Shown one piece after another: positions 27,501 to 64,000 of a stretch of DNA of 64,000 nt. Below the pieces are notes generated by a model that saw only the letters and a program-made list of their open reading frames with translations, was not told where the DNA came from and ran no database searches. Both the position numbers and the translations under genes were made by a program. This DNA is from Isoetes taiwanensis (lineage: Eukaryota; Streptophyta; Lycopodiopsida; Isoetales; Isoetaceae): assembly GCA_021234155.1 (NCBI GenBank), contig JAJEKV010000035.1:6571891-6635890 (forward strand), given 5' to 3'. The stretch's first letter is position 1. Each line of letters opens with the position of its first letter.

Positions 27501-28622
27501 CACGTGGCATGTTTGAGCCTAGGTGGCATGTTAGAGCCACGGTGGCATGTTGGAGCCTAGGTGGCATGTTTGAGCCAACCTGGCATATTTAAGCCTAGGT
27601 GGCATGTTGTGATCCACCTTGGCATGTTGGAGCCTAGGTGGCGTGGTGGAGACCACGTGGCATGTTTGAGCCACCTTGGCATGTTGGAGCCTAGGTGGCA
27701 TGTTGGAGCCTAGGTGGCATGTTTGAGCCCACCTTGGCATGTTTGAGCCACCTGGCATGTTTGAGCCTAGGTGGCATGTTGGAGCCTAGGTGGCATGCTA
27801 AGCCACCTTGGCATAGGTGGGATGTTGGAGCCACCTTGGTATGTTGGAGCCTAAGTGAGCCTGCATGGCATGTTTGAGCCTATGTGGCATGTTTGAGCCA
27901 CCTAGGAATGTTGGAGCCTAGGTGGCATGTTGGAGCCCACGTGGCATATTTGAGCCACCTTGGCAAGTTGGAGCATAGGTGGCATGTTGGAGCCTGCGTG
28001 GCATGTTTGAGCACGTTGGAGCCTAGGTGGCATGTTTGAGCCATTTTGCATGTTGGAGCCTAAGTGGCATGTTGGAGCCACCTTGGCATGTTTGAGCCTA
28101 GGTGGCATGTTAGAGCCATCTTGGCATGTTGGAGCCCACGCAGCATGTTGGAGCCCACGTGGCATGTTTGAGCCACCTTGGCATGTTGGAGCCTAGGTGA
28201 CATGTTGAAGCCCATGTGGCATGTTTGAGCCACCTTGTCATGTTGGAGCCTACGTGGCATGTTTGAGCCACCTTGGCATGTTGGAGCCTAGGTGGCATGT
28301 TGGAGCCCACGTGGCATGTTTGAGCCACTTTGGCATGTTTGAGCCTAGGTGGCATGTTAGAGCTCTGGGTGGCATCTTTGGAGCCTAGGTGGCATGTTTG
28401 AGCCAACTTGGCATATTTAAGCCTAGGTGACATGTTGTGAGCCTAGGTGGCATGGTGGAGCCCACGTGGCATGTTTGCGCCACGTTGGCATATTGGAGCC
28501 TCCATGGCATGTTAGAGCCCGCGTGGCATGTTGGAGCCACCTTTGTGGCATGTTTGAGCCACCTTGTGTATGTTTGAGCCACCTTGGCGGCATGTTTGAG
28601 CCACCTTGGCATGTTTGAGCTG
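24513..28622. repeat. 19-bp satellite array (GCCTAGGTGGCATGTTGGA family), about 4.1 kb
   Basis: Roughly 200 tandem 19-bp monomers of the form GCC-N5-GGCATGTT(T/G)GA. Main variants are GCCTAGGTGGCATGTTGGA, GCCACCTTGGCATGTTTGA and GCCCACGTGGCATGTTTGA, with occasional 18-, 20- and 21-bp units. A higher-order block (GTTAGAGCCACGGTGGCATG ... CAACTTGGCATATTTAAGCC) recurs near 24,525, 25,095, 26,325, 27,070 and 27,530. Because three monomers equal 57 bp, frames stay open and encode 19-residue repeats on both strands (for example PPRLQHAKVAQTCHLGSN). These are not genes. Confidence 0.92.
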
Positions 28623-28679
28623 ATTGGGACCTGAGATCATGTGCATATGCTCAAAAAATGGATTTGAGGCATAAAAAAG

Positions 28680-28878
<199 letters not shown>

Positions 28879-28939
28879 TCCCACATGATTGAGTTTTTTG
28901 CATGAGAGACGATGAGAGGTGATGAGAGATGTGAGAGGG

Positions 28940-28970
28940 AGGTGAGAGTGGGGAAAACCCACTCTCACCT
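28940..28970. repeat. Subterminal hairpin, left end of Harbinger element
   Basis: GGTGAGAGTGGG and CCCACTCTCACC pair perfectly around a 5-base loop (GAAAA). Confidence 0.8.
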
Positions 28971-29315: not shown

Positions 29316-29342
29316 GATTTCTAAGATCCTGTACTTGTAAGC

Positions 29343-30548
29343 ATGCCAAGAGGTTCAGATCATTCAAAGGCCTTCGTTCCTCCAAGGCGTGAAAAGGAAT
29401 TTCAGCCAAGAAAGGCAAAGAAAATGACCGGATCAGTGTCTGCCCCTGTAATTCATGGACTTCCTGCTCCAAAAGAATCAAAGAGGAGTAGAAGCAGGTC
29501 GGATTCCCCGGTTGTTTGTGCTAGAAGGACAAACTTTGAGGCAACGCAAGTAAGTCAAGACTCTGTTTCTTCTGGAAAGTCCCAAGCATTAGTAGTTGTA
29601 GATCCAAATTCCGATACAATGGTCCCGAAAGCAAAGCGTAAATCACCATTGGATTGGTCTGATGAAGCCATCTGTGCATTGTTGAACCATCTAATGGAAT
29701 TCAAGGCACATAACAATGGTAGCATCAATCTTTCCAATTCCCAATGGAAAGAAATTCTGGAAAGACTCATGCCCATAGTACCAGGTTTAGTTGAATTGAG
29801 GCAGCTGAAGAATAAATGGGACAAGTTACAATCTAAATTCAAGGACGAGAAATATGCCGAAGACAGAACAGGGGCCGAGCCCTCTTCTTGGCAGTGGTAT
29901 GAGAAGATGGAAGAATTGAGAACAGGTTGCACTAATCACACAGATCTCCCTGGTGCAGGAGATGACGGTGCATTTGGGGAAGAAGCATTCCATGCTGCTG
30001 AGATGCATTCATCATACCAGGAAAATTATATGCCAGAATCATTCTATGAAACCTTTGGAACCAATTCAGCATTCCAGGAAGAGCAATTTGAGGTTCCAAA
30101 CACGGACCCTCCATGTAATAACACAGAACCCCTTGAAACACCTTCGAGCCCGAACACAAATGGTGGAAATTCAAACAGTACTCCTAATTCTGCTGATAGA
30201 GAAGGCCTGCATGAGATAAGTCCAAGATCAGCAGCTTGTATGCAGCCTGGAGTTGCAGGTAAACTAGTCTCAAGGAAGAGATCCAGATTGGCTATTGATG
30301 AGGACATAGCTTCTGGAATCAGTGAAATGGCAACTCGGTTTGGGGCAGCAAAAGACAAGAAATTGGAGTTCATGAAAGATGATTCCATGCGAAAAATTGA
30401 ATTGGTAAAAGAGCTGGAAGAAATGAGATCTGCTCATAGCCTGAAAATTGCAGAATCCATGGCTATCATGACTCAAAGCATTTGCCAAATGACCAAGGAG
30501 ACTTTGCTCGAAATTGCAAAACTCTCGGCATCAAAACAGGGAAATTGA
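29343..30548 (+). CDS. Myb/SANT-like DNA-binding protein of PIF/Harbinger element
   Basis: Uninterrupted 401-codon frame from ATG (29,343) to TGA. Residues about 97-190 form a Myb/SANT-like (trihelix-type) domain: D-W-S-D-E-A-I-C-A-L-L-N-H-L-M-E-F, then W-K-E-I-L-E-R-L, then Q-L-K-N-K-W-D-K-L-Q-S-K-F-K, and S-S-W-Q-W-Y-E-K-M-E-E-L. Basic nuclear-localisation-like stretches occur near residues 15-45 and 310. The C-terminus (about 330-400) is a charged amphipathic helix. In PIF/Harbinger elements the Myb-like partner binds the element ends and helps the transposase enter the nucleus. It is convergent with the transposase gene. The absence of stops contrasts with the broken transposase, so the ORF has decayed less or has been retained. 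A likely 5'-UTR intron precedes it. Confidence 0.85.
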   Translation: MPRGSDHSKAFVPPRREKEFQPRKAKKMTGSVSAPVIHGLPAPKESKRSRSRSDSPVVCARRTNFEATQVSQDSVSSGKSQALVVVDPNSDTMVPKAKRKSPLDWSDEAICALLNHLMEFKAHNNGSINLSNSQWKEILERLMPIVPGLVELRQLKNKWDKLQSKFKDEKYAEDRTGAEPSSWQWYEKMEELRTGCTNHTDLPGAGDDGAFGEEAFHAAEMHSSYQENYMPESFYETFGTNSAFQEEQFEVPNTDPPCNNTEPLETPSSPNTNGGNSNSTPNSADREGLHEISPRSAACMQPGVAGKLVSRKRSRLAIDEDIASGISEMATRFGAAKDKKLEFMKDDSMRKIELVKELEEMRSAHSLKIAESMAIMTQSICQMTKETLLEIAKLSASKQGN

Positions 30549-34569: not shown

Positions 34570-35010
34570 TGTTTTAGTCCACTGAAAAAAGAACACCATT
34601 ATCGAACAAAACCATACCTCCACAAATCCACATGTAGGATTCTTTGAAAACAGGACATGTAGACCTACCAAAACTGATGTTTTCAACAGTGGACCGGGGT
34701 GAGTGTGACAGCTTTTCCTGAGGCACAATGTCAAAAGCCTTAGCGAAGTCTACAAAGCAGCAATACAGATCTTGCCGACGGTTCCTGCTGTTCTCAACTA
34801 GAGTCCGCAGCGTGAAGAGATAATCTATGGTTGGGTGTCTCGGCCTGAATCCTGCCTGCGTGAGTGCCCGCACTTCTGCTGCCTCTGCCATTCTGTCAAC
34901 TGCCGCTCGAGGATTTCGGCGAGGAGCTTTGCAAACACTGAGCTGATCATGATGGTTTGGTAATTGGCCGGGCAGTGCGGGTCTCCTGCCTTGTAGATTG
35001 GGATAGAGAG
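34570..35010 (-). pseudogene. LINE reverse-transcriptase fragment 2 (left flank of copy B)
   Basis: From 35,010 downward the minus strand encodes I-P-I-Y-K-A-G-D-P-H-C-P-A-N-Y, then F-A-K-L-L-A-E-I-L-E-R-Q-L, then A-L-T-Q-A-G-F-R-P-R-H and D-L-Y-C-C-F-V-D-F-A-K-A-F-D (RT palm, motif A region), with one frame change near 34,880. It is the upstream half of the same LINE type as at 16.9 and 43 kb, and it stops near 34,690 before the YADD block. Confidence 0.75.
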
Positions 35011-35014
35011 GGCA
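35011..35014. other. Target-site duplication GGCA (left) of copy B
   Basis: GGCA directly precedes GGGTGCAAAATCGG at the left end. The identical GGCA follows ...TTTTACACCC at 42,953-42,956. Confidence 0.7.
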
Positions 35015-35436
35015 GGGTGCAAAATCGGTACTGGGTAGCAGAAATCACCGTCCGGACGCCGCTTACAAGTGCTTAAAATCGGTGTGTTTTAAACACGACG
35101 TGCGTGATTGAAGTATTGACATGTAGGGTGCGCGCCCGTCAAATGACAGGCTGAGAGAATCATGAACATGTTTGGTGCCGGAAACATGAATGCCTGTAGC
35201 CCGCCATATTCCTGGATGGCGGGCTAACCCATCTTGAATTCAAGCAAAATGGAGGGACTAATTGTTTCCAAGAATTGCCTGAACCGAAATTCAACAATTT
35301 GCCCTCAACAATTCAAAGAATACACGTAAATCCGGGATAGATGAAACCCAATTCCTCTCCCCGTTCAATTTCTGAGAGCCATTGATGCAGCAAGGAAGAG
35401 AGATCGAGGCGTAGATTATATGCAAAGAAGGTAGCA

Positions 35437-37930
35437 ATGAAGAAGAATTCCCCTTCTAAAGATTCGCCTTCAAAGGCGAATAAGAAATTGAGACCGAAAG
35501 TGACCCATGAGAATAAGAGAAATTTCGGGGAGAAATTTATGAAGTATTCAACCAAATCAAGTACAAATGTTGATGACAATGACAAAGGCCGCATCCTTGA
35601 CAGGTCTTCTTTGGAGGGCAAAGGGATTTACCAATTGCTTCTATAAAGAAATCTAAGCGAGGTTACTATGGCCGAGCAAATGGTGAAGAATTTGAAGGAA
35701 ACAATGCAAGAACATAAGTTTGAGAGGAATTATGACATGCTTCGTGCAAGGAAGTCCACCCGATAATGGCAGCAAAGCGGTACAAATGGTGTCAAGCCAT
35801 TGAATCAAGCGAAGTGGCTGATTGCTCAAAGATCCCGGAAAAACAATTTCAAATGCTTTTCAAAGAAGGGTGCAAGCTAACAAAGGGGAAGGACCTTGGT
35901 CAATGTTCAGGAGGAGGAAGCGGATGGATAGCATGTTAGATCACAATAGAGAAGCTGTTATCAAGTTCTGGACAGAAAATACAAGAGTTTCTCCATACAA
36001 GAAAGACGTGAGGAAGTATGTATCGAGAGCGGGGAATAAAGATGGAACATCCAATTCACCTTCTTGAAGTCAGCCAAGTAAGTATTCATCCTATATTGTA
36101 GTGTTCATTATATGTAGCATTTATTTGGCATTCACACGATTTCCCTGCAGTTGCAATTCTACCTCAGGTTTAGAGATGAGAATCCTCATATCAAAATTGC
36201 ATTGCAGACTTTTGAGAGGTTGAAACCTAGTTTTGTAAGGAGGATGCGTGAGAGGCATACATCTTTGTTGCATTTACCACTTGAAATTTGAATACATCAT
36301 GCAAGGATTGAGCAGCCGAGAAAATCGGGTGGAGTTCATGACAATTGCAAACCGCCATTGTGAGATTTGTGGCCCCGCCCGTAATGTGCAGCCAAGGAGC
36401 ATACAATCAAGTGTACCGGTGATTTATGGAGACAAGTGAAGTGCGGCAAAGGTGATGATGAGGAGTGGTTTGATCATAACTGCTTGATGTTGGCGTGTAA
36501 AAAATGTGGGTTGGATAGAATTAGAAAATGTCCACAGGAAATGGATGGCACGGGTTCAGTACTAGTTAATTGGAAGACATTTGAAAAGCAACACGTGGAC
36601 CGGGAAGAGAATTGAGGGGATCCAAGAAAGGCTTTGAGGTACAAACTGTCTTGAGATTAGTACGAAGGACGAAGTCCCAAAGAATTTCAAGAGGAAGTGA
36701 AGAAGGTAATATCAGATTTTGTTCCACACAATTACATAGCACATTGGCAAGGGCCAATCGGTTTAACAAGTGTGTGTCATCATTTCGGAAGATACAATTG
36801 TATATACATTATTGACTTTGCGTAAAAATTGACATCAAGATCGAATGAGCCCCGATCAATGCACCGGCATACGAGACCAAGTTTCTATACTTGTTCACAT
36901 AACATATAGGCATGACAAAAGTGCTGATATTCTGTTCTGTCGCGCACGTAAGAAGACCATCCAAAGAAAGAAAAAAAAACGAAGGTTGGAGCGATCGGGA
37001 ATAGACTCAACAACGGTAGGAAGATCATAAAAGAGACTCACTTTTACATTTCGATGATAAAGTGCATGACTCATTATTTGTGGAACAACGCCTCTGAAGC
37101 ATGTTGCATGGCTTAAGGAACAGGGAAATAGAGTATGAGAAGCATTGGTTTTGGAGTGATGGCTGCTCATCACAATTCAAGTCGGGGAAAACCTTTTTTT
37201 TTTCTTAGGGGTACTTCACAATCAATGACAAGGAAATAGTGTGGAACTACTTTGCCACTGCTCATGGTAAAGGTGAACATGATGGTGCAGGTGCTGTTAT
37301 CAAAAGGCTGCTAAGTAAGGAACAACTCAAACCCAATGGTGTGCAACTGAGGCATGCTAAAGATATTGTAAAATTTCTGTGTACATATTTCAGTAGTCTA
37401 CCAGTCGATGAAACAGATGAGATCAAAAGATATTTTTGGGAAATTGAACCTGTTGTTGTGGCAAACATGGAAGAATATGAAATTGAAACACTCAAAGGCA
37501 CAAAGAAGATTCATCAGATCGGACACATCGCCAACAGGACTAGACCAAACAGGCTTGCTCATAGATGCCACATCATGTTTTCGCTTTCGTTTTGCATGGA
37601 TCATAATTGGGACTCTGCATCAATACAGTAGATTTGGAAAGTGGGAGGTAGCCCGACTTAAAACCGGGAGTTGAGAAGAAAAAGGAGACTCTTGAACAAG
37701 CCAATGAATGGATCAGTAATTTGGTAGAGGTAGGTGACAATTTTGCGATGAATCTTTGAGGTAGACAATTGAGGAGGGTGTGGACTTCTACATCCTCAAG
37801 TGCCTGTAACCCAAATGCACACTTGAAGATTCATACAAAGATGGATGGGGCAAAAATTTGGAGTGCATGAGGTTATCTTAAGTGGATTGTATTATCAATT
37901 CATGGGTAATTTCAAGTATATGTTGCTCAC
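35437..37930 (+). pseudogene. Decayed DDE/D transposase of copy B
   Basis: Pieces in different frames match the transposases of copies A and C. They are a basic N-terminus (35,437-35,643), G-P-W-S-M-F-R-R-R-K-R and F-W-T-E-N-T-R-V-S-P-Y-K-K-D-V-R-K (about 35,890-36,015), and an exon starting at a CTGCAG acceptor (36,148) with L-Q-F-Y-L-R-F-R and L-K-P-S-F-V-R-R. Then V-S-I-L-V-H-I-T-Y-R-H (about 36,880) and W-N-Y-F-A-T-A-H-G-K-G-E-H-D-G-A-G-A (37,240-37,295) follow, with R-Y-F-W-E-I-E-P (about 37,430). A final weak piece of the C-terminal domain lies at 37,725-37,930. The first catalytic block (D-F-A-E-N-Y) is missing or unrecognisable and many stops intervene. Confidence 0.7.
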
Positions 37931-38563
37931 TAAACAACCCAAGAAGCCTCCGGTAATGACCATGTGGTAAGATATCCTAAAATTGATATGGAAAAAATAG
38001 AAGGCATGAGATATGTACAATTTCACAGAGACCCATGAAAAAATTATGGCAGTCTCCCAATAACAATGTAATTCTTTGACACTTAACCAAATTGATGGCA
38101 TTCTTTTCAAGTGATTTGTTGTTCCGGCACCTAAGCACGTAAGCACACATTTGTATATATATTAATAATAGTGAGGATGCACAAGGGTGGTGTGCATGGA
38201 CACGTACTTTGAAATGAAGATTGAATTGTTGTTTAAGAATGTACATTTGTGACATTGGAATAACATTCAATTATTTATTTTGATACCATCACTATCCCAA
38301 CATTCTTGGCAAAATTATATTGTAAAGGCATTTCCTCGATGTGACATGTGTCAATTCCAATGGTCGCATGCAATTATTTAAGCACGGTTACTGAATTAAT
38401 TGTTACGGGCGTGTGAGGTTTTTCGTTATCTTGACGGCGCCTAAGCATAGGATTTAAGCACTAGGCCCCTAATCATAGGATTTCAGCTCTTCTTACGCCC
38501 TCACGCTACCGCCTTTAAGCCGTGAGAATCCGTTTCCAGCCTTTCCACGCTCGCTTATTTGCA

Positions 38564-39070
38564 ATGGCCTCGCGATGCAAATGGGAAACCAAGTACAGAG
38601 TATGTGCTTAAACAAGTGCGGAAGATGCGGATGTCGCTCCGCAATACAAGGGGGCCTACTTCTTCGAGCCGGTTCAGCCAGATTCAAGAACAGACACCGA
38701 AGATCGAGAGGAAGAAGAAGGTATTATCTTGTTTTGCATTTTTTTTTGTTTTGTTTTTCTCTTTCTAATATTCTTGTTTACAGAAGTGGAGCAGGAAGTG
38801 GGGCAGGAAGTGGAAGAAGAAGAAGAAGAGGAAGTGGAAGAAGAAGAGGAATCTGAAGAAGAAGAAGAAGACAATTCTGAGGAGGACAATTCTGAGGAAG
38901 ACAATTCTGAGGAGGAAGAGGAAGATGGAGAGGAAGAGGAAGAGGCGGATGAAGAAGAAGAAAAATACCGCCGAGTCATTATGAAGAGCGCCCCACTAAG
39001 AGGCAGAGGAGGCAGGAATTGGAGGACAATGTGTGGAGTGAGCCAGAAAGCCCTTGAAGATACCCCCTGA
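38564..39070 (+). pseudogene. Acidic two-exon gene of copy B, one in-frame stop
   Basis: ATG at 38,564 starts M-A-S-R-C-K-W-E-T-K-Y-R-V-C-A, then a TAA (about 38,609), then the same frame continues to D-T-E-D-R-E-E-E-E. A GT donor at 38,721 and CAG acceptor ending 38,783 join it in phase to exon 2 (38,784-39,070), which is almost pure Glu with Asp, Ser and Asn and ends R-R-V-I-M-K-S-A-P-L-R-G-R-G-G-R and a TGA. The exon layout and composition match the acidic gene of copy A. The stop means the full-length protein is not made unless a downstream start is used. Function unknown. Confidence 0.5.
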
Positions 39071-39190
39071 AGACACCCCCTTGAAGACACCCCCTGTTCA
39101 AAGACACCCCCTGTTCAAATACACCCCCGTTCAAATACACCCCTCAAGACCACCCCGATCAAAGACACCCCCGAGGCGAAGACACAGGCC
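39060..39190 (+). repeat. AAGACACCCCC short tandem repeats
   Basis: Units of (A)AGACACCCCC(T)GTTC/TTG repeat about nine times directly after the acidic gene of copy B. Confidence 0.8.
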
Positions 39191-39199
39191 TGAAGGCCT

Positions 39200-40140
39200 T
39201 TTTTTGTAGAAAAATTTTGTTAATATACAAAAATTTTTGTCTCTCACAACTTTCTCTATATCTTGTCTCATCTACTTCTTTTCAAAGATCACATTTTGTT
39301 TTTTCTATTGAGTAAAGAATGAATTCATTTGATGTTCTTACTTCTATTATCCATGCATGTGGCAAAACATTGAATTCTTTATACAGTCCATATTCTCGCT
39401 TGAATGTAATAAAGGTTCGCTCAAACACGAAGCACTTTAATTAGTTTCAGAAGTGCTTGTGAGTAAGCTTTGGAATGCAAGAGCACACATGCAATAAACA
39501 AATTATCAGAACGGTTATATAGCATAACAAAGAAGTTAATCGCAAACAATGTACAGAACATATATGTTTTCATCTATGAAATGTTATTTTTGTCTATCTA
39601 TCAAATTTATGAAGTTCGAATTCCTGTGCAGTCCATTCAGATTCTGCTTGAGTGTAACAGTGCTCTAGCTCTTTCATTAGTTTCAAACACTAAGCACTTT
39701 AATCACTTTCAGCAGTGCCAGTGAGTAAGCACTGGAACACACGAGCACTTATGCAATAAATGACTACCTTTAAACAGGTTATATGGTTTAGCAATAAGCC
39801 ACCGTGACCTTACACCGCATGACAAGTAAGCACATGATGACATTAAGCAACTACATAAAAGTATCCACACTTTGCAAGACAATAAGCAGTATCTGCCATT
39901 AAGACTCAAACCATAGCACTTGCAGGCAATTTTTTTTTAAGCACTTGATAAGTTTTAAGCATCCCTTTCAGTCAGCATTGAAGTATATAGAAACAATATA
40001 GCAAAAACTTATAGACAAGTCTGCATTGAACTACATAAACAATATAGCAATAACATTCTTAAATTAAGATAAAGATGGTACATGAAAAGTGTAGGATTCC
40101 TTGGCCTAAATAAATGACAAAAGCGGACCAATAATCATGG
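39200..40140. other. Spacer inside copy B, no gene seen
   Basis: AT-rich sequence with a local duplication (segments with AGTTTCA...AAGCACTTTAAT...GTGAGTAAGC at about 39,430-39,480 and 39,680-39,730). It separates the convergent gene ends of copy B. Confidence 0.5.
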
Positions 40141-40143
40141 AGA

Positions 40144-42897
40144 ATGACAAGCGTCATCACCATAAACCTTCTCCAATTCCTTCTTCACAAACCCGCAGAA
40201 TCGCAATCGTTTTTCCGAGAAAGTCTTTCCAAGCATAGCTTCATAATCTTTCTATCCGTCTTAGGCCAAGGCTTGTATCTATGTGTATTCTTCACCGGTG
40301 ACTTCATTTCTTCCTCGTCTTGGCTGGCAAAGTATTTCTTCTATCTTTGGGGTGAGTCTTTGGAAGCACTTCATCATGGACATCCATCTTGAATGCAAAC
40401 CCCGCAGAAATTTCGAGGGACTGCTAAGGTAAGACTTGTACAATGAATCATCAAGAAGCAAAGTCTTACCGGTGAATCTTGGGTATGACTCATATATTTT
40501 CCCAAGTGGCTTCATCATGACCGACAGCCGGGTTTGTTAGGGTGGTAAAAACTGGTCCGCACACATTTTTTCTGCCCCCATACAAATTCAAATCATCCCT
40601 CAAACGGACATAGTACTTGCAAAACACATCTTCCACATTGGAGAGTTGCATTGATGACCATATACCAACACGACATACAGAACAAAGTCTTCAAGAAGAA
40701 CACTTTTCTGCCGGTCCGAATATCACTTTCTTTTACGCTAGTGTATGTCATTGTCAATCCCGCCTTCCAAGCGTATGTGTTCATTTGCACCAAATGTTTT
40801 TACCAACACACCATTTAAATCCAAGACAATGAGTTTATCTTTGGCTGGCAAATCAATATTTAATGCGTTGGAACATCCCGAATACCTACACAACAGGAAT
40901 TACTACATGAATAAATAGATGAAGATGAAAATGAAAAATGGGTTGAATGTGGAAACCTTTTACGTATCAACAAAGCCAGGATTCTCTCGACCTAACGTAA
41001 TGAACCGTAATCCTACGAATGAATGCAACAAAAGAAAATCAATAATATTCAATGTTTTAATCAACATTAAGTTGTGGACTTGCCCAACAATGCCCATACC
41101 CCCTTTCCAGGGTTATTAATGGCAGAAATCACTTGTTGAAGATCAGGCTCACCTGAACCTTGAGGGCCCTGATTCTGCATTTTCTTGAGAACACACCGAT
41201 ATTTGTGGTGTCATGATTGAGACCTTTTCTGCATCTTTTGCATAGCTACTTCTTGTTCTCTTTCTTGTAGCCTGAACAACTACTTTGCTATCCTCCGGCT
41301 TACCCCTCTTTGTTCTTACGCCCTTTCCTTTCTGCAAATATTCAGCCAAGTTGCCCTCATCCGATGGAATTACTCCCTCAACTTCCTTAGGTGCTTTAGT
41401 GTGTACAATCGGGTCTGTTGTTCTTTCCACAACTGGTGTTGTGTTTACAGCTTCTTCTATAGCTTCTTGGATGCTTCTTGGGTGGTGGTGGTGGTTCTGT
41501 TGTTGCAATCAAATCGATCACAATTGATTTGTACTCCTATAGGACTTTGCGGGTGTTGTGCATCTTCAAATGGCACCATTGTCCTTCTTTGAACCCTCAG
41601 CGGTGAGACCTCAATTGCGGGGCCGGATTAACACATCCTTTTTTGGTGTACTATTTGAAGCACCCGCAACATGGCCAAAACCTAGCTCGTCAAATACACC
41701 CTCGGCACCTTTCGGGCAACCATGAATACATTGTCCTCCTCTCAACAATGAACAACAAGCTATATGATACTCATGTTGGCAATTCGATTGCTAAACTTAA
41801 CTGTAAGCTTTTAGTGAATTCCGGACCACATCTTAGAACATGTATAAAATGAATCTTCCACTAGCAACTTATCTCGTATAATAGTAGAGATGCTAAATGT
41901 TGCGTGAGTATCCATTTTCAGCTTCCACAAATTGTTTATGTAGAAATGCACGGAGTCTCTGTTCTTCTTCGAGAACTTTTAACTCCTCCTCAAGTTTGAG
42001 TTTACGTTTGACCCGCTCATTAACGGATGTAGGGTTCATTGCTTTTTGTACCTTGTTCTGTGCCAAGTTTCCATCCGGACGGTCTGCTCCAAATCTTTAA
42101 TTTACGCCTCCAACTCACATGTTGGATTAAGCTTGAACTCCTCCCTGTTTTGTAGCCAAATCATTTGTGGCTCTGTCTTAAACTGTTTTTCAGCCTCTTC
42201 CAACATCATTTTTTCGTAATTCGAGAGGCCTTCTCATTGCCTTTCAGCTCACTTCCCTCGCTTCCAGATTCTTTGTGATAAGTAAAACCGATTTTCCAAT
42301 CTCCTGATCTTTGCATTCTCTAAGGTTTTATGTTTTCATCACATGCACCGACCTCATTTGATCCATTTTGCCACCTTTGGCTTTGCCTTCATTTTGATTT
42401 TCCTAACATGTGCTACAACATCACGCCTCTGTTTTTACTTGTCTATTGTTGTGGTATCTTTGACATTGCACAACAAATGCAGCCCGATTTACTTTGTGTT
42501 CCTCGGGTGCAAGTATTGATCTAGTGCAATTTTCAAGCGCAAAAGCAAGGGGCGATTGCTTTCTTACTTCTTTGTTGTGACAATTCTTGTAGATTTTTCG
42601 GCAGAGTGTTTCCAACTTCTCTTGAAGATGCTCCTTTGCACAGTGCCATTTTATCTTTCCCTTGTTCAACTTCTTTGTCCAAACAGAATCCCAATCTCGA
42701 TCCGTGACATTATTTTCCAACCAAGCTTCTTCCTCGTGGGGCTTCACCCCCGAATTGCACAGACCTCTGATGGTGTGAAAATCATCCACGCTCCATGCCT
42801 CCATCGTCAACAGTGAAACACTGATCTGAGTTTTCGCGCCCAGGGGAAAAGGAGGGAGAAGGGCGTGACGGGCTTCGACGTCCGCGAGTTTCAGCAC
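40144..42897 (-). pseudogene. FCP1/NIF-type HAD-domain gene of copy B, decayed
   Basis: Reading leftward from 42,897: an N-terminal frame (from M-E-A-W-S-V-D-D-F at about 42,800) with W-L-E-N-N-V-T-D-R-D-W; a coiled-coil stretch E-E-E-L-K-V-L-E-E-E-Q-R-L-R (about 41,960); and a basic linker with Q-K-G-K-G-V-R-T-K-R-G-K (about 41,320). The HAD domain follows, with K-L-I-V-L-D-L-N-G-V-L-V (about 40,835-40,800), V-G-I-W-S-S-M (about 40,655) and T-L-L-L-D-D-S-L-Y-K-S-Y-L-S-S (about 40,470-40,430). FCP1/SCP enzymes use D-x-D-G. The second Asp, normally the general acid/base, is Asn here, as also in copy C. Several frame changes and stops separate the blocks. It is convergent with the transposase of the same element. 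Confidence 0.7.
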
Positions 42898-42952
42898 TTA
42901 AAGTGCTTAAACGCTTCGCCAAAAGTTGTACCCCACTAGCGATTTTACACCC

Positions 42953-42956
42953 GGCA
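42953..42956. other. Target-site duplication GGCA (right) of copy B
   Basis: Identical to the four bases before the left end. GGCATCCCTGG continues as ordinary LINE sequence. Confidence 0.7.
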
Positions 42957-43780
42957 TCCCTGGTGGACCCCCATACTGCTCTCGAATGGTTGGCCCGTCG
43001 GTTGCAGCGGGCCTGTGCATGCCTCATATAACCTGTATATCGCGTTCTGCAGTTCAGCAGGGAAGTCTAGCTGCTGCAATCTTGTCTATAGCGTTTCCCG
43101 AGGCACAGTGCCAAAAGCCTTGGCGAAGTCTATGAAGCAGCAATACAAATCTTGCCGACGGTTCCTGCTATTCTCAACCAGAGTCCGCAGCGTAAAGATA
43201 TAATCTATGGTTGAGTATCTCGGCCTGAATCCTGCCTGCGTGAGTGCCCACACTTCTGCTACCTCTACCCATCCTTTCAACTGTCGCTCGAGGATCCCAG
43301 CGAGGAGCTTTGCAAACACTGAACTGATCATGATGTTCCGGTAATTGGTCGGGCAATGTGGGTCTCATGCCTTGTAGACTGGGACAACCCTGCCAGTGGT
43401 CCATTGGAGGGAACCAATGCCTTGTTGAACATGTCGGTGAGTACCGGTGCCATGGATGGTCCTGCCCACTTGAGTAACTCTGCCTGCATGCCGTCAAGAT
43501 CTGGTAGTATTTTGCCCTAGATATCCAAACGGAAGTAGTTTTGAGGAAACTATGCTTAGGATAAAAAGGAAAAGATCAAAGCTCATCCCCTGCCTTTCCA
43601 TTGGCTAGACGTTGCAGCCCCTGCGCTACTTCCGCCTCCGTGATTTCCAGCACTGGGCCCTACTTGGGGGAGGGGGTAATTCCGCCCGTGCACCCTCAGG
43701 GTTGTAGAGCTGCTGTAGGTAATGGCCCCACGAGTAAGGGGCAATCCAAAAAATCAAGAGGACAGAGTTTATGGTGGGAA
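42957..43780 (-). pseudogene. LINE reverse-transcriptase fragment 3 (right flank of copy B)
   Basis: From 43,680 downward the minus strand reads I-T-E-A-E-V-A-Q-G-L-Q-R-L-A-N-G-K-A-G-D-E-L, Q-A-E-L-L-K-W-A-G-P, F-A-K-L-L-A-G-I-L-E-R-Q-L, Q-A-G-F-R-P-R-Y, C-C-F-I-D-F-A-K-A-F-G-T-V, and finally the segment before Q-G-C-P where copy B begins. Frame changes occur near 43,520, 43,380 and 43,080. The YADD part that should follow is not on the far side of copy B; an upstream LINE piece is found there instead. Confidence 0.75.
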
Positions 43781-56167: not shown

Positions 56168-56171
56168 TTGG
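56168..56171. other. Target-site duplication TTGG (left) of copy C
   Basis: TTGG precedes the left end and is repeated directly after the right end at 63,684-63,687. Confidence 0.7.
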
Positions 56172-56494
56172 GGGTCTAAGTTAGATATTGGGGTACAAAA
56201 GCACCCGTCCGGACGCTCTGCTTTTCGTGCTTGATCTGCTGTGCTTGGGGGTGCTTGGAGAGCGGGAACACGATGATCCGTTTTTAGCAAATTGCTTCCG
56301 GATCAATGACATGGCTGCTCCGAAAATCAAATTCGGTTCCGAAATGATCTGGGTTGATGCTTTTTGAGATGGCGGGTCTGTTTCTTGAATTCTTTTGTGG
56401 CGGGAATGATCATTCAAAGCTTGTACCTCAAACGAATCGTTCTTTGTAGATCACGGTTTCTCTCCGCAAAATTTCTCGTACATCGGGATCCTCA

Positions 56495-59400
56495 ATGGAT
56501 CAATCGGGTTTTGATTTGGATGAGGAAAAAGAGACTCAAAGTTTTCCGGGAAATTCAAGCCGAGAGAAGAAGGCAATCAAGGCAAATAAAAAGAGAAAGG
56601 GAGAGAGAGAAAGAAAACTTGCACCCGAAATTGAACGAGGCTCGAAGTGCGAGAAGGCTTCAAGAATTGTCCAAAAAATGGACGATTATTTCAACGAAAT
56701 CACAAAGCCTTTGAAAGAAGGGGATAAAGCAATGGTGGTGCAATGATTTGTGAAGAGAGTGAAGGCTTAAATTGCCAATGGAAGGATTTTGTTGATCATG
56801 AACAAAGCAAGATCATGAAGAATGTGATTAAAAATGTTCAGGAGACATTCAATGAACAAAAGAAATTAAGGAAGACAGATGTATTGCAAGCAAGAAAGTC
56901 TACTTTGCAAATGGTATCTTCATCAGCAAAATCCATCAACCAATCTGCTGTCGCACGTCTCCTTCATATATCTAGAAAATCTGTTGTTGCTGCAACCAGA
57001 AGAAGAATAATGGCAGACCAAGAATGTGGTCCGTGGTCAATGTTTTCAAGGAAAAAGAGGTGTGATGCATTGAGTGACGAGGTTAGGAATTGTGTTTACA
57101 AGTTCTGGACAGTTAACACACGAGTTTCACCATACAAGAAGCATGTGAGAAAGTTTGTTACAGCAGATGGCGATAAAATTGATCATCCAATACAACTGTT
57201 TGAAATATCTCAGGTGATTTCCCTGCTTAGTATGTTTCTTCTGTTGCATATATTTGTTTCTATATAGATCTTCTTTGTTTGCAGTTGCAATTTTACATGA
57301 ACTTCAAGAAGGAATTCAATAACATTAAGATTACCCAGCGCACATTTGAATTGTTGAAGCCATCATTTGTGAGGTGCTTAAATGAAAGAGAAACTTGCTG
57401 CTGCCAATATCACATGCACTTTGAATATGTGATGCAAGCACTCAACAAAATCAGAACAGATCCAAATGGCGTGCATAAAGATTGCAACCTGCACTTTTGT
57501 GTCGTTTGTGGTGATGGTAACTTTTGTGCAAAGAAAGAACCATGTTTATAAATCCACTAGTGATTTTTGGAGGCAAATGATCCGCCCCTAAGGATGAAGA
57601 TGAAGAGTGGCACAAACATAATTGTGTGCAGTGGCATGCAAGGATTGTGGATTGAAAAGGTACTCTTTTTTTAATGTTAAGATGTTTGAACATTCTATTT
57701 TGAGTTGTTAAGATGATTGATGCAACATCTTACAAACAAATTTCGCGGTGGTCTTACAAACAAGGTTGCCAATATGTCCAAAGGAGAAGGAGGAGTCCGA
57801 TTACAAAGTGGAGTGGAAACAGTTTGAAAAGGTAGTGTATTTGGCATTTGTGCTTAAATGATTTTTGTGCTTGTGATTGTTGTGCTTGTGTTTGCAAACT
57901 TACGGTGATCTTTCTTTGTTTTCAAAAACAAAGAAGAGGTTGGTTACATGAAGGAGACCACCAAGAAAAAATGGCGGAAAGAAACCAGCAAAGGTAACTA
58001 GACTTGCATACAAGAAAGAGAGCCTGGTCCAATTCCAGCAAAGATGCTTCAAGACACCGGTACAATTCATCCCACACAATTATGTTGCACACCTCGGCAG
58101 CAAAGCAATTCGGGGAAGTGCTTGGATACTTTTTCCTGAAGGTGCGCTTGTCTCGGTTATTGATTTTTGCTGAAAATTACAGTTTTAAAATTCGGAAAGA
58201 GGCACAATCTTGCCACCGGCACCACGATCAGACATCAATATTGGTTCATATCACATATAGACATGCAACCCGGGATGAGATAGAAGATATGGAAGCTAAG
58301 GAAGCAAGAGAGAAGGGAACTAGAGAAGGAAAAGCAAAGAAAGAAAGAGGAAGACAACTCAGCAGATCATCGCCAGTGAGGGAGAATCATAAAGGAAGTA
58401 CATTTTATATTTCGGATGATAGAGATCATAGCGGTGAGTTTGTACAACATTGCTTGAAAGTTCATGCAGATCGTTTCGTGAGTACAAAATATTTTGTACA
58501 ACAAACATATTTTTGGAGTGATGGTTGCACAAAGACGGTTCAAAGGAGCAAGACCTTTTTGGTATTTAGGAAGGAACTATGTCAATAGTGAAGGAATTGA
58601 GTATGAATGGAATTTTTTGCCAGCTCTCATGGGAAAGGAGAACATGATGGACAAGGTGCAATCCTAAAAAGGATTTTGGCAAGAGAACAATTGAAGTATG
58701 ATTCCCGGAAATTGAGCGTGCCAAAGACGCTGTGGATTTCATGAATTGGTATATGATGAACAACCCACCGGACCCAAATATAAGAAGGTAAATTCAATCA
58801 AGTACCATTGCATTCTTCTTCATTTGAGGTGACATTTTTACATTCTATATTGCAGGTTTTTGGCATATTGAACCCAAAATGTAGACAAATCTGAAAAGAG
58901 GGAATGGAGATCACTTTGTGGGAGCTCTAAACTTCATTCCATCAGACCATGTGACAAAACAAATCCTGCAAAAGTTGCCCACAGGTGTCTCTCTTGTTTC
59001 TGTTTCTTTTGCTTTCATGGAAAATGGGATGATTGCATGAACAAAGCTCGATTGGGAGCTCAGAAAACAATCAGCCAACAAAAGCAGTTCAAGATGAAGA
59101 TGAGGATGAGGATGAAGAAGAGGATGATGATGAGGCTAATGAATACCTCAGTTCTGTTCTAGAAGTTGGAGATAACTTTGCTGTAAATGCAGATCCAGAG
59201 GATGCTGAAGGAGTTGACTTTTATGTTCTTAGGTGTACAGAGACTAAACAGACATTGTTAGATGCATATGAAGACTCATGGGGTTTTGCATTTGGTGTGG
59301 GAGAAGTCATAGTTTCTGGCCACTACTACAATGCATTGATGCACTCCACTTTGAGTTATTAGTGGACAAGCCAGTTGCTAGTGTGTACAGTCACCTTATT

Positions 59401-59502
59401 AGACAAGTGAAATTTGATATGGAGAGTCTTGGCAACAACAAGTTCAAGATGAGTGAAGAGACATGCCAAAAAGTGATGGCATCCCTTCCTGTAGAGTGCT
59501 AA
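56495..59502 (+). pseudogene. DDE/D-type transposase of copy C, frameshifted
   Basis: The first frame (56,495-56,743) is basic and coiled-coil-like. After a one-base shift a second frame contains an HTH-like S-A-V-A-R-L-L-H-I-S-R-K-S-V-V, then G-P-W-S-M-F-S-R-K-K-R and F-W-T-V-N-T-R-V-S-P-Y-K-K-H-V-R-K to a CAG|GTGATT donor (57,214). The next exon (57,286, after TTTGCAG) has L-K-P-S-F-V-R-C-L and C-C-C-Q-Y-H-M-H-F-E-Y. Then come E-E-W-H-K-H-N-C (57,605), F-A-E-N-Y-S-F (58,170; the preceding Asp is lost), a Lys/Glu insert of about 45 residues, S-T-F-Y-I-S-D-D-R-D-H, W-S-D-G (58,517) and H-G-K-G-E-H-D-G-Q-G-A (58,628). The C-terminal BAH-like domain (59,150-59,400) has V-G-D-N-F-A-V-N-A-D-P and V-G-E-V-I-V-S-G-H-Y-Y. 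Stops and shifts make it non-functional as it stands. Confidence 0.75.
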
Positions 59503-59509
59503 CACCGCC

Positions 59510-60149
59510 GATCGTTTTTTTCATACGCCGCTCGGCGCAGAAGCACATCATTCACATGTAAAGTGGCTCATTGTCGCTACATTGTTTCTAACAAACCTAT
59601 TGTTTCTAACAAACCTATCAATGGAAGCTAACAAATTCTTTGTTGCACAGAAATTTGTAGTCTTGACTGACTTGATCAATGTACTGCTGCTGGTGCTTTG
59701 TCTGTTTCTGCTTTGTCTGCTGACGTGCTAATTGTTTTTGAGTTTATGCTTAACCGTCTGCGTCCCTTCAGTTTGGTCCTTGGAAACAAATGGTGGAAAC
59801 TTTTACGCAAGTGTTCAATTGGGGATTTGCTCAAGACAATGCACAAAGTAAATACTCTTAAACCTTTTACATGCATATGTTCAAAGATTGGCTTCATATA
59901 CAGGTTTGTTTGTTTAACCAATTAGGATTTGGACTTCATGATGGATACAGAGACAAGCATAGGAGAAACCATTACATTCAAATATAAACTGGGACAACAA
60001 TTTTGCAAGTAGAAACTCGCAAGTCTTGGGTAAATATTATATTCATTAGATACAAAATTGTTACAATATATGTACAAATACAACTAACTCACTTTGTCTT
60101 TATCACAGGTTACATACAAGGGCTAAGTTACATAAATATTGAAAAGAGT
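59510..60149. other. Spacer between convergent genes of copy C
   Basis: A non-coding stretch. No acidic gene like those of copies A and B was found here. Confidence 0.5.
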
Positions 60150-63100
60150 CTATAGACTCTTATTCTCCTTCTGTGAGAATTTCATTCTTTGCATCACTTG
60201 AAGTGCGGTGTCGACAATAAGAGTAGTATCTTGTGTTTTATCTTCTCTTGCAGGCTCTTCATCCTGTTCATTGACAAAATCAGTATTATTACCTGCAGGA
60301 TTGTTATTATTATCTTCATGTACTTTATCTCCCGCCTGCATCAGTATGTTTATACTTATATCATCTATCAAGCCTTGTAGCTTAGACATCTCCTGGCTAC
60401 CAACTTGTACTTCTGTTTCTATTTTCTCCAAAACATGCTCCTTGTCAACCTGTTGCTTATCTGTTTCTATGTTGCTATCATTTTTATTATGAGCTGATGC
60501 AGCAGTAGTTACCTCAATTGCTTCCTCAGGCCAAGCAACTTCTAGGTTCTGTCAAACCAAGTAATTCAAATCAAACAACATACAAAAAATGCAACTAAAT
60601 GAATTGAAAGCAATGACATTACTACAATCACTTCAATAGCATAACAACACAACTAAATGAAATTAAACAACATACCTTAACAATTTCCTTCATTAACTGA
60701 ATGCTTTTGAGAATAGCCACTTTCCACCTCGCTAGTTCACTTAGATGGTCAGCCAGAAGCCTAAGTATGTCGATGTCCTCTTCTTGAACTTTATCTTCAA
60801 CATACTGCTCGTGCAACCACTTTTGAGGATTCTTGGCATTGAGCCAAGTTTGCAGAAAATGCAAACTAAGAAATTGAAACCTTTGTCATTGATGTCATTA
60901 TCAAATTTTTCAATTATGAAGCAAGTGTCTTGTGGGGACAAGAAAGTCTTGTACAATGAGTCATCAACTAGCACTAACTCCCCTACATCCTCAAAAGCCT
61001 CATACACTTTTACAATTGGCTTCATAAGCACCGGCTTGTTGGATTCCTCGAAAAACCGAAAAGGCATCACCTCGCAGACTCTTTTCGACCCCAAATGAAC
61101 TTGAACCTTCCTATAAAGGAAGGTGGCACTATAACATTTAGGATTTCTATGATGTTGTGCTTCATCATAGAAGACCATATGGCTACCTCAAATCTGGCAA
61201 AGCACCCTTCTAAAAACTTTATCGATACGGTGCGCACAACACCACTTTCCCCCCTGCATAATGCTTCTTCAGCTCTGTTTGAATTTTAATTCTGGTTCTT
61301 TTTTGGAATGTGCTCACCAGAACTCCATTTAAGTCTAGGATGACAAGTTTTTTCTTTTCTAAGGGGTCTGCAACATTCATAAAACAAAAAACTCAAACAT
61401 CAACAATTCTGACATCAATTTAACAGTCTTAACAAAACAAATTAGTTCACAACTTCAAATTGCTGTCTTTCAACAAATTAACACAAGTGTCATTTCAAAG
61501 TTTTCAAAGTTTTCAAAGTTTTCAAAGAACTTTCAAGTGTTATTTCAAAGTTTTGGGAACTCGCATTAATGAACACGGACACTAACCAGTTAACATTTTG
61601 TAAATAACATTCTGAGGATCACCTTTTAGAGGTTGTGTTGGCATCTTCTTAGGGGGCCTACCCTTCTTCTTCTTCTCCACTGCAGGTGCTTGTACTTGTT
61701 CTTCTTCTTCTTCTACATTCTTCCCTTTATCAGCAGCCTTTGTTGCAATGTGATCAAGACCACCCCCGGCTTCTTTGTCCGGATCTACAACTTCATCAAC
61801 CACGGAGCTTTCTCCTGCAGGTTCTACTCCTCAACCTCGACTTTATGGTGCTCACTGGCTGCGGGGCGATGTTTAGGAGCTCTTCTTCTTCATCGGTCTT
61901 TGTCAACCACTAGTGCACGTGTTACTCTCTTTTTGGGCTTTTCCTTACCAATCTGAATCAGTAAAGAAAACTAGTTAGAATAGACATGAAATAAAGTTTA
62001 CAAAACAAACACATAAAAACACCAAATGGTTACCTTTTTTAATGCTTCAACTGCTGTTGTAACAGGACTTGGTGATGCCACGCCTTTTGTAAATGAGGTT
62101 TTGGTGATGCCACAGCTGCTAGAGTATAATCAGGAACTAATGGAGACTCAGCAACAAATATTGGTGAAGAAGTTGACTGTTTGTAGGGTGAAGCAAAAGC
62201 ACTACTAGTGCCTGCTCCAAACCCACTGCTGATGGCTACCTCAGCTCCATCTTCAGCTCCAACTTCTAAACCAAGTTCCACAAACAAATCCCTGGGAACT
62301 TCCTTTAAGCACCTGAAGCATGCCTTCTTTTCATACAAAAGCATGCAACATGCCAAGTGATAGGCATGTTCAGATGGCAACTTCATACTCAAAGTATATT
62401 GTGGATTGAATACCAATCCACATGCAAAGACATGAGTTCTCCATAAAACCGGCAACCGCTCTTCATAGTCATGATAGAGATTCTGAAGTGTCTGGTGCAT
62501 CAAGCGCCTAGCAGACTTCTAAAGAGACCCCCTTTCTTGAAGTCCGAATTCTAAAGAGGCTTTTTAGCCTTTGCTTCTTCTCCCTTTCGTAATCTTTGCT
62601 TCAACACTTACCTTTGGAAGGCAAGCTTCCGGTTTGGAGCAAGTAAAAAGCTCTCCACTTATTTTATGCTTCAAATCGCAACTGGGTCAAATCTTCATCT
62701 GTTTTATCCGCTTTGTCATTCAAAGCGGATAACTCATTCAGAAGTCTACTCACCTCCTTCTTTGCTATATCAATCATTACTTGCTCCCGTGCTAGGGAGT
62801 TGTTGTCAACCTCAATCTTACTAATAATCTTAGCCAAATCGTTTTGACAGTTATCTAACTCTGTTTCCAACTTCTTTACTTCCTCATCAATCAAAGAAAT
62901 ATTGAAACTACAATTGCAAGCGAAGAAAATTCATTTGGCTGACCACGATTTCGCTTTTAATTCCATCGAGGTGTTCTTACGCCGCCTCGGCTAACGAGGT
63001 GTGCTTTGGCCCTTTGAAGGATGTGCGGTTTTCATTTTTTAACATCTTCTTTCTTTACATCCATATCATCCCTTGGTTTTTTCTCGACCAAACGGTAAAC

Positions 63101-63438
63101 TCGCGGACTTGTATGCATCCCAATTTATCTTATGACCCTCATGATCTTGCTCTCACGACGACCACAATGCTCCCAAGCAAATGCCAAAGCAACGAAGTTT
63201 CCTCAATTCGTTGTTTGGTAATCCCGCCAGGATACGTGAACTCGACCAAGTCCTCCAATTGTTGCTTAGGATGAGTGCGGACAAAATAAATTTTTATTTT
63301 GCCTTTTTCTTTAAAGGATTGAATGGTTACGTCCATACACCGTTCCAATCTTCTTCGGGCCATAGTATCCTGCGCCAGCCGGTTTCTGGCGAGGAATAAT
63401 CCCTTCTCCGCCATCGCAAAAAGCGTTGAATTAATCAA
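60150..63438 (-). pseudogene. FCP1/NIF-type HAD-domain gene of copy C
   Basis: From 63,438 (an ATG giving M-A-E-K-G-L is slightly inside): an N-terminal frame to about 63,139; a coiled coil K-K-L-E-T-E-L-D-N-C (62,894-62,664); a frame with H-A-Y-H-L-A-C-C-M-L-L and C-F-R-C-L (62,503-62,039); and a Glu/Lys linker with AT-hook-like K-K-G-R-P-P-K-K (about 61,660). The HAD domain follows: K-L-V-I-L-D-L-N-G-V-L-V (about 61,350-61,315), F-E-V-A-I-W-S-S-M (about 61,195-61,170), E-L-V-L-V-D-D-S-L-Y-K-T-F-L-S (about 60,990-60,950). After a shift at 60,870 the C-terminus L-H-F-L-Q-T-W-L-N-A-K runs to a donor at 60,675 and, past the intron, N-L-E-V-A-W-P-E-E-A to a stop at 60,150. D-L-N-G lacks the general acid/base Asp of FCP1/SCP phosphatases. 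A few frameshifts are present. Role in the element unknown. Confidence 0.7.
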
Positions 63439-63683
63439 AGAGCAAGGTATGAAGCAAGCGGCCAGGAAGGAAAAAAATCTCGGAAGCGCGAGGGTACAAT
63501 TCGAATCGTAAAATAGGGTATCGGATCAATTATCGATTTTAGCGAATGATTATGGGTTCGACGGCCGGATCATTGTTTGCAAAAGGCGGGAAGGAAACGA
63601 AGGTGCGAAGAATAGTCGCCCGGCGTGCTTAATCTGCTTCCGCTTGTCGCGCTTTTTTGTACCCCAATATCTAACTTAGACCC

Positions 63684-64000
63684 TTGGGCATATTTTTAGA
63701 AATATGCCAGATCTAGGATCCACAAATATACACCTCACACCCTCGTATACTTGGATGCTCCCCTATGTATGTGTATACGTATGAAAATACGTAAAGCAAT
63801 GGTAAATACAGGGGCACAAACCATTGCAAGGGAGAAAAAATATTTGGCAATCAGAGACGTTCATTAGCTTCTGAACCTCTCCGGACCCTCTTCTGCTTTG
63901 AACCTCTCCGGCACCTTTGCAGTACCTCTCTGAAACCTCCCAACCAAGCAAATCGGCTCAACATGTACTTGAATTCAGGCGGGATAGATGCTTGGATGCT
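63684..64000. other. TTGG duplication and right flank of copy C, no gene seen
   Basis: TTGG (63,684-63,687) is the right target duplication. GCATATTTTTAGAAATATGC right after it is a small palindrome. A GAACCTCTCCGG phrase repeats at 63,875 and 63,900. Nothing else was recognised. Confidence 0.5.

Follow-up and report, generated by a model that had tools for sequence, protein, structure and literature searches.

Transposons of the Sola superfamily, such as Sola1 of Physcomitrella, encode a DDD-type transposase, generate 4-bp target duplications and occur in non-flowering plants (PMC10741241, PMC9033089); their terminal inverted repeats range from 11 to 1124 bp and their size is mostly 2-9 kb (PMC10741241). 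A Sola transposase can be accompanied by a second gene, as in the Sola2 elements of amoebozoans, which carry Fanzor1 and produce AT-rich 4-bp duplications (PMC3627910). Similarly, lineages of Kolobok, a single DDD/E superfamily, are marked by different second proteins, namely nucleases, a helicase or KolX (PMC9587614). The accessible portions of these accounts mention no FCP1-like or RING-like second gene in Sola and no HAD/FCP1 protein in Kolobok. Here, we analyzed a 64,000-nucleotide stretch of the genome of the lycophyte Isoetes taiwanensis (contig JAJEKV010000035.1, positions 6,571,891 to 6,635,890; hereafter the window), in which positions 56172-63683 are a decayed, structurally intact copy of a two-gene cut-and-paste DNA transposon, element C. 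Its gene 1 encodes a putative DDD-type transposase that is likely of the Sola type, and its gene 2 a protein with a RING-like site and an FCP1/NIF-like HAD domain. By description, the element resembles Sola in its putative DDD-type transposase, 4-bp duplications, size, inverted-repeat lengths and non-flowering plant host, and it resembles Sola2 in adding a second gene, but this gene is FCP1-like rather than Fanzor1 and the duplications are of mixed composition. We favor, with a probability of about 0.72, an expanded two-gene Sola-like lineage in which gene 1 provides the transposase and gene 2 a selected accessory protein that would act as a nuclear adaptor.

Element C (7512 bp, plus strand) is bounded by perfect 29-bp terminal inverted repeats (56172-56200 on the plus strand and 63655-63683 on the minus strand) and has TTGG on either side (56168-56171 and 63684-63687). 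Gene 1, on the plus strand, comprises an N-terminal exon (56785-57213), a Cys/His-rich exon (57285-57548), a catalytic core region with the successive motifs FAENY, ISDD, SDG and HGKGEHDG (57976-58788), whose frame is broken in this copy, and a C-terminal exon (59057-59499). Gene 2 runs toward it on the minus strand. From its N-terminus, it encodes a conserved domain of about 100 residues (in part at 63142-63354), a stretch that looks coiled-coil-like by eye (62679-62927), the RING-like site (62267-62455), a charged linker and the FCP1/NIF-like HAD domain with its DLNGVL and VDDS motifs (60744-61392), and pieces of its C-terminal tail were located at 60153-60885. A first-pass annotation had read the ends, the duplication and two convergent genes directly from the DNA; the ends and duplication recur in other copies, and protein matches located both genes. 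It had also called the element complete, which holds for the structure but not for the genes, since parts of both match only through shifted frames or with stops. For example, the FCP1 exon of the window copy alone matched PF03031 weakly (E 0.042, 14 bits), compared with E 2.9e-15 for the same exon in the sister copy L024.

To find other copies, we searched the genome assembly (1,658,258,908 bases, 1110 contigs) with the left 229 bp of element C. Forty of the 307 first-look candidates were scored, at 93-100% identity, and 20 further copies were fetched in rank order of these left-end matches. Both ends lay within 9 kb of each other in 17 of the 20 copies and not in the other three; twelve of the 17 were 7.4-7.6 kb long and the remaining five shorter. 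An exact 4-bp duplication flanked all two-ended copies except L027, the 16 duplications comprising 14 different sequences, and this recurrence excludes chance as the origin of the ends and the duplication. Scanning with protein pieces recovered both the core transposase and the FCP1 segments in 16 of 21 C copies, one or both being missing in L017, L018, L021, L025 and L027. Empty sites were also found. When joined, the flanks of the window copy correspond to two places (L037 and L038) at 94-95% identity, where TTGG occurs only once; for F51, a member of a related family, the joined flanks likewise correspond to two places, at 97-98% and with one CAAA. The 4-bp duplications and empty sites that the annotation had proposed to look for in full-length copies were both present.

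Fourteen aligned C copies, including that of the window, are 92-96% identical, and each differs from the majority by about 200-390 substitutions and many small indels. The longest open frame in the 13 other copies reaches 357 residues at most. Some of the indels may be errors, as the assembly is partly Nanopore-based (PMC8566536). Over 12 copies, the left 29-bp end does not vary and the right end varies by 0.6% per site, compared with about 3-12% in the interiors more than 100 bp in; the invariance of the left end was favored by the ranking of the copies, whereas that of the right end was not, beyond its having to be recognizable. The simplest interpretation is that a few functional copies mobilized the broken ones in trans; uneven assembly error is a further possibility. 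Polishing error is a less likely source of the perfect ends, because divergence already reaches 8% in the interval 30-100 bp inside the right end. Near-invariant ends on interiors several percent apart were seen throughout this set (L011-L028 and the window copy), a sign of recent trans-mobilization of decayed copies.

Element C is not alone in its gene content. Both genes were found in seven families: C, B, A with its relative F70 (L031), F51, the element around F51, L034 and the C1037 pair. Their recurrent end is GGGT(C/G)TAA(A/G), and one end of B reads GGGTGCAAA. A and B lie in the window itself, where the annotation had noted the same gene pair in the same convergent layout, as protein matches confirmed. 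Element B (35015-42952, plus strand, 7938 bp) is complete, with imperfect ends GGGTG(C/T)AAAATCG and a GGCA duplication (35011-35014 and 42953-42956). It holds a decayed gene 1 (35395-37940, plus strand) and, on the minus strand, the gene 2 N-terminal domain (42433-42759), part of the RING-like site (41680-41781) and a decayed FCP1-like domain (40417-40842). Gene 1 of A lies at 3952-6598 on the minus strand and its FCP1-like domain at 528-1093 on the plus strand, the remainder of gene 2 falling before the window; element A leaves the window on this side, and its other end was not found. F51 is 7357 bp long with 30-bp perfect ends and a CAAA duplication, and it is inserted in another element with its own transposase and FCP1-like gene, which makes the outer element the older of the two. 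L034 measures 7420 bp, with a TCTT duplication.

Element B itself sits in a repeat (34574-35014 and 42957-43400) with a frame that is presumably reverse-transcriptase-like; a 295-bp piece of the left flank of B recurs on its right flank at 89%. Beside gene 2 of L032, a B-like element, is a helicase frame that we take to be of Helitron/PIF1 appearance. At about 420-814 of L030, on the minus strand, a stretch that we take to be retrotransposon protease-like continues without a frame change into the F51 exon for the FCP1 domain.

Overall, the pairing of the two genes is recurrent across the genome. The transposase exon and the FCP1 domain of F51, used as queries, yielded 13,379 and 5,308 first-look candidates, of which the best 150 each were taken. 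Among these listed matches, a transposase and an FCP1 domain lay within 15 kb of each other in 63 pairs (61 transposase and 62 FCP1 matches, F51 included). All 63 were convergent with FCP1 downstream, none showed any other arrangement, and about 0.4 would be expected by chance; the gap measured 1.3-1.7 kb in 45 of them. The N-terminal domain of gene 2 behaved likewise in its own list. It lay upstream of FCP1 on the same strand (76 N-domain and 76 FCP1 matches, two exceptions) and in convergent orientation downstream of 52 transposase matches (three exceptions); 90 of its 150 matches had a partner of either kind. A further 92 FCP1 matches, compared with the transposase lists, added nothing to the set, the 16 pairs obtained being known already. 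In a single prediction test, the stretch beside C1037, an FCP1-only match of another group, held the convergent transposase as predicted, decayed and 53% identical to that of L032. A local accident or an artifact of assembly, as the many indels in the copies and the Nanopore contribution might suggest, is refuted as the source of the pairing by these counts and by the empty sites, and we give it virtually no credence. The annotation had judged the pairing not to be chance and had named transposase copies without the HAD gene, or ends that do not flank both genes, as grounds for abandoning it. On this check the pairing held: it recurred genome-wide in one convergent layout, and the ends enclosed both genes in other copies. 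Two of the fetched copies, L021 and L032, have the core transposase but not the HAD part.

We next consider what each gene encodes. Seven gene 1 sequences share invariant residues in DFAENY, HFYIS, SDG and HGKGEHDG, and the first, third and fourth of these motifs supply three invariant aspartates as putative catalytic residues. Gene 1 had no match in Pfam or NCBIfam, the helix-turn-helix match of the L034 N-terminal exon being weak and below cut-off (HTH_23, E 0.0017), and the transposase had no meaningful sequence match in the PDB. Its motifs presumably resemble those of Sola transposases, which we compared by description. Together with the motifs, the ends and the duplications fit Sola. The 4-bp duplication, a Sola trait, was found at 16 of the 17 two-ended C copies and at the window copy, as well as at F51 (CAAA), L034 (TCTT) and B (GGCA), and the inverted repeats (29-30 bp in C and F51, elements of 7.4-7.6 kb, and 13 bp exact in L034) fall within Sola ranges. 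The targets (TTGG, AAGG, AACG, AACC and others, 71% A+T over 17) follow neither the TTAA of Sola3 nor the preference of Sola2. The latter is described as AWWT-like (PMC3627910). We therefore assign gene 1 as a likely DDD-type transposase of the Sola type, and the lineage as likely Sola-like with a new accessory gene, Sola having been compared by its descriptions.

Gene 2 had been described as an FCP1-type HAD protein. The HAD domain stands, but the protein also contains the RING-like site and the conserved N-terminal domain, and its motif I is without the usual second aspartate. PF03031 matched the FCP1 part with E-values of 3.6e-14 (L034), 1.4e-11 (element around F51), 1.3e-4 (F70), 2.9e-15 (L024) and 2.4e-21 (C1037). 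All five proteins exceed the cut-off of 21.8 bits, the family A relative with 22.1 and the other four with 44.7 to 76.5. NCBIfam models for UBLCP1-like and dullard-like proteins matched only below their cut-offs, and the best solved relative by sequence was UBLCP1 (3shq, E 4e-4). An AlphaFold model of gene 2 had a mean predicted local distance difference test score of 54 overall; in the FCP1 region, residues 141-270, the score was about 65-82. The N-terminal domain had no Pfam match, and a HORMA-type name considered for its exon was dropped for this reason. A RING finger has eight Cys/His ligands, about seven of which can be discerned by eye in the RING-like site. Searches of prokaryote and viral collections returned 102 and 54 pattern-matching stretches, respectively, none of which was confirmed as a relative.

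Motif I bears directly on whether gene 2 is an enzyme. In active phosphatases of the RNA polymerase II C-terminal domain (CTD), it reads D-x-D-x-T/V. Gene 2 departs from this pattern: among 23 aligned sequences, 22 have D-x-N-G and one D-L-K-G, so that the second aspartate is an asparagine or, once, a lysine. At this motif, A and F70 have EPED, the element around F51 has DVNR and B has DLNG. By contrast, the four host-type genes whose motif was read retain D-x-D-x-T (DLDHT or DMDET). In a tree, a clade with support 0.999 unites these four with a fifth host-type sequence and leaves out 11 transposon or transposon-like sequences, whose own deep nodes are weak. Gene 2 could in principle be an active CTD-type phosphatase that acts on RNA polymerase II or on the transposase and thereby controls transcription or transposition: the domain is FCP1/NIF-like, its nearest solved relative is a phosphatase, IWSS is conserved in all 23 sequences, and the first aspartate, the lysine before proline and the D-D/E motif are mostly retained. 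With the second aspartate lost, and EPED in family A, we consider such activity improbable. Gene 2 thus shares with the FCP1, SCP and UBLCP1 phosphatases its PF03031 domain and motif order, but differs in the replaced aspartate, in the joined RING-like and N-terminal domains and in being transposon-encoded. Because the second aspartate is missing, gene 2 is more likely a phosphoprotein binder or a weak phosphatase than an ordinary phosphatase.

A different possibility, which we regard as tentative and clearly weaker than the adaptor reading, is that gene 2 encodes a structural subunit of the transposition complex, contributing DNA binding, nuclear import or transposase stability, with the HAD domain as a scaffold. 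The Myb-like protein of Harbinger and TnpA of En/Spm offer parallels for such a role. The fixed pairing in the families seen, the loss of motif I in family A and the basic and coiled-coil-like segments visible by eye all suit a subunit, whereas the gene 2 pieces scanned for DNA-binding families gave no match. The present data do not separate a subunit from an adaptor.

To assess selection, we compared 20 transposase/FCP1 exon pairs together with F51, L034 and C, that is, 23 sequences per gene and 253 non-independent comparisons each, of which 148 for FCP1 and 95 for the transposase were saturated or undefined. The FCP1 part had a median ratio of nonsynonymous to synonymous divergence (dN/dS) of 0.20 at dS 0.6-1.0 (n=55) and 0.17 at dS 1.0-1.6 (n=19); the transposase had 0.20 at dS 0.3-0.6 (n=39) and 0.12 at dS 1.0-1.6 (n=54). 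As expected for decaying copies, values were higher (0.31-0.63) at dS below 0.3. The FCP1 part of gene 2 is thus under purifying selection between families, with dN/dS of about 0.2. Across 22 elements, distances between the gene 1 proteins are correlated with those between the gene 2 proteins (Mantel r 0.90, p 0.0001). Between elements C919 (L040/L060) and C933 (L039/L059), the transposase dS is 0.04 and the FCP1 dS 0.68, a contrast indicating that element halves were exchanged or gene-converted. Transposons do capture host genes, and the FCP1 part is absent from two copies, as might be expected of a passenger without function for the element. However, gene 2 is under purifying selection, its layout and orientation are constant over diverged families, and the separate host-type clade argues against recent repeated capture. 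Gene 2 is neither sporadic nor free of selection, as a Pack-type passenger would be, and we hold this explanation to be very unlikely.

The insertion with a 4-bp duplication, the recurrent pairing and the selection acting on the FCP1 domain of the gene 2 product are shown by the data, and gene 2 can be said to serve the element because this part was retained by selection while the families diverged. In the nuclear-adaptor reading, gene 1 would recognize the GGGT(C/G)TAA... ends, cut, and insert with a 4-bp stagger. The gene 2 product, combining a phosphate-binding HAD fold with a RING-like site, would act in trans: these two parts may bind a ubiquitin- or phosphate-marked host partner, such as the RNA polymerase II tail, the proteasome or a chromatin factor, and this binding could help expression or transposition. 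As D-x-N-G keeps the first aspartate and lacks the second, binding or very slow turnover would be more likely than phosphatase action. A more specific version, on which we would place little weight, is that the lost aspartate and the RING-like site make gene 2 a phosphate trap that binds phosphorylated RNA polymerase II or proteasome or chromatin factors, counters silencing or recruits transcription, and serves broken copies in trans. Such service to many broken copies would explain perfect ends around diverged bodies.

Several observations weigh against the nuclear-adaptor reading. Among the matches listed, 89 of 150 transposase and 88 of 150 FCP1 matches had no listed partner, although this does not show that the partner is absent, because only the best 150 per gene were compared. 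L032 retains the transposase and the RING part without the FCP1 part, and L021, a C copy with an internal deletion, retains the core transposase without FCP1. The RING-like site stays below the Pfam cut-off (zf-RING_2, 18.1 and 21.2 bits versus 27.3), and with EPED as motif I, the HAD domain of family A is hardly an enzyme. Finally, the 20 pairs in the selection analysis were hand-picked out of 39 long ones, in part because they contained few stops.

Other features were seen along the way. The window contains a 407-residue open frame with a Myb/SANT-like domain (29325-30545; PF13837, 6e-9) and, visible in translations, a minisatellite-like array with long simple repeats (27074-28964). On contig C1018, between 22.9 and 26.9 Mb, twelve listed NIF-domain matches of 142-172 bits lack stops and may represent an expanded family of host genes.

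Sola elements that carry a second gene were already known, and the FCP1-like second gene would be a new accessory gene. In the openly accessible literature, with Repbase outside the scope, we found neither an FCP1/NIF protein in a transposon nor Sola elements with one, in agreement with the annotation, which could place the pairing of HAD protein and transposase in no described group. The published repeat library of Isoetes taiwanensis, as far as its accessible description goes, excluded repeats similar to plant proteins (PMC8566536). The genome holds 5,308 unscored first-look candidates for the FCP1 domain of the element and 3,261 for the Pfam family, host genes included; those of the element, some with long open frames, may be misannotated as host phosphatases. 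The lineage adds a class of accessory gene to eukaryotic DNA transposons, a RING-like and FCP1-like HAD protein that is under selection, here in a lycophyte, and provides a testable case of a transposon that may act on phosphate or ubiquitin signaling.

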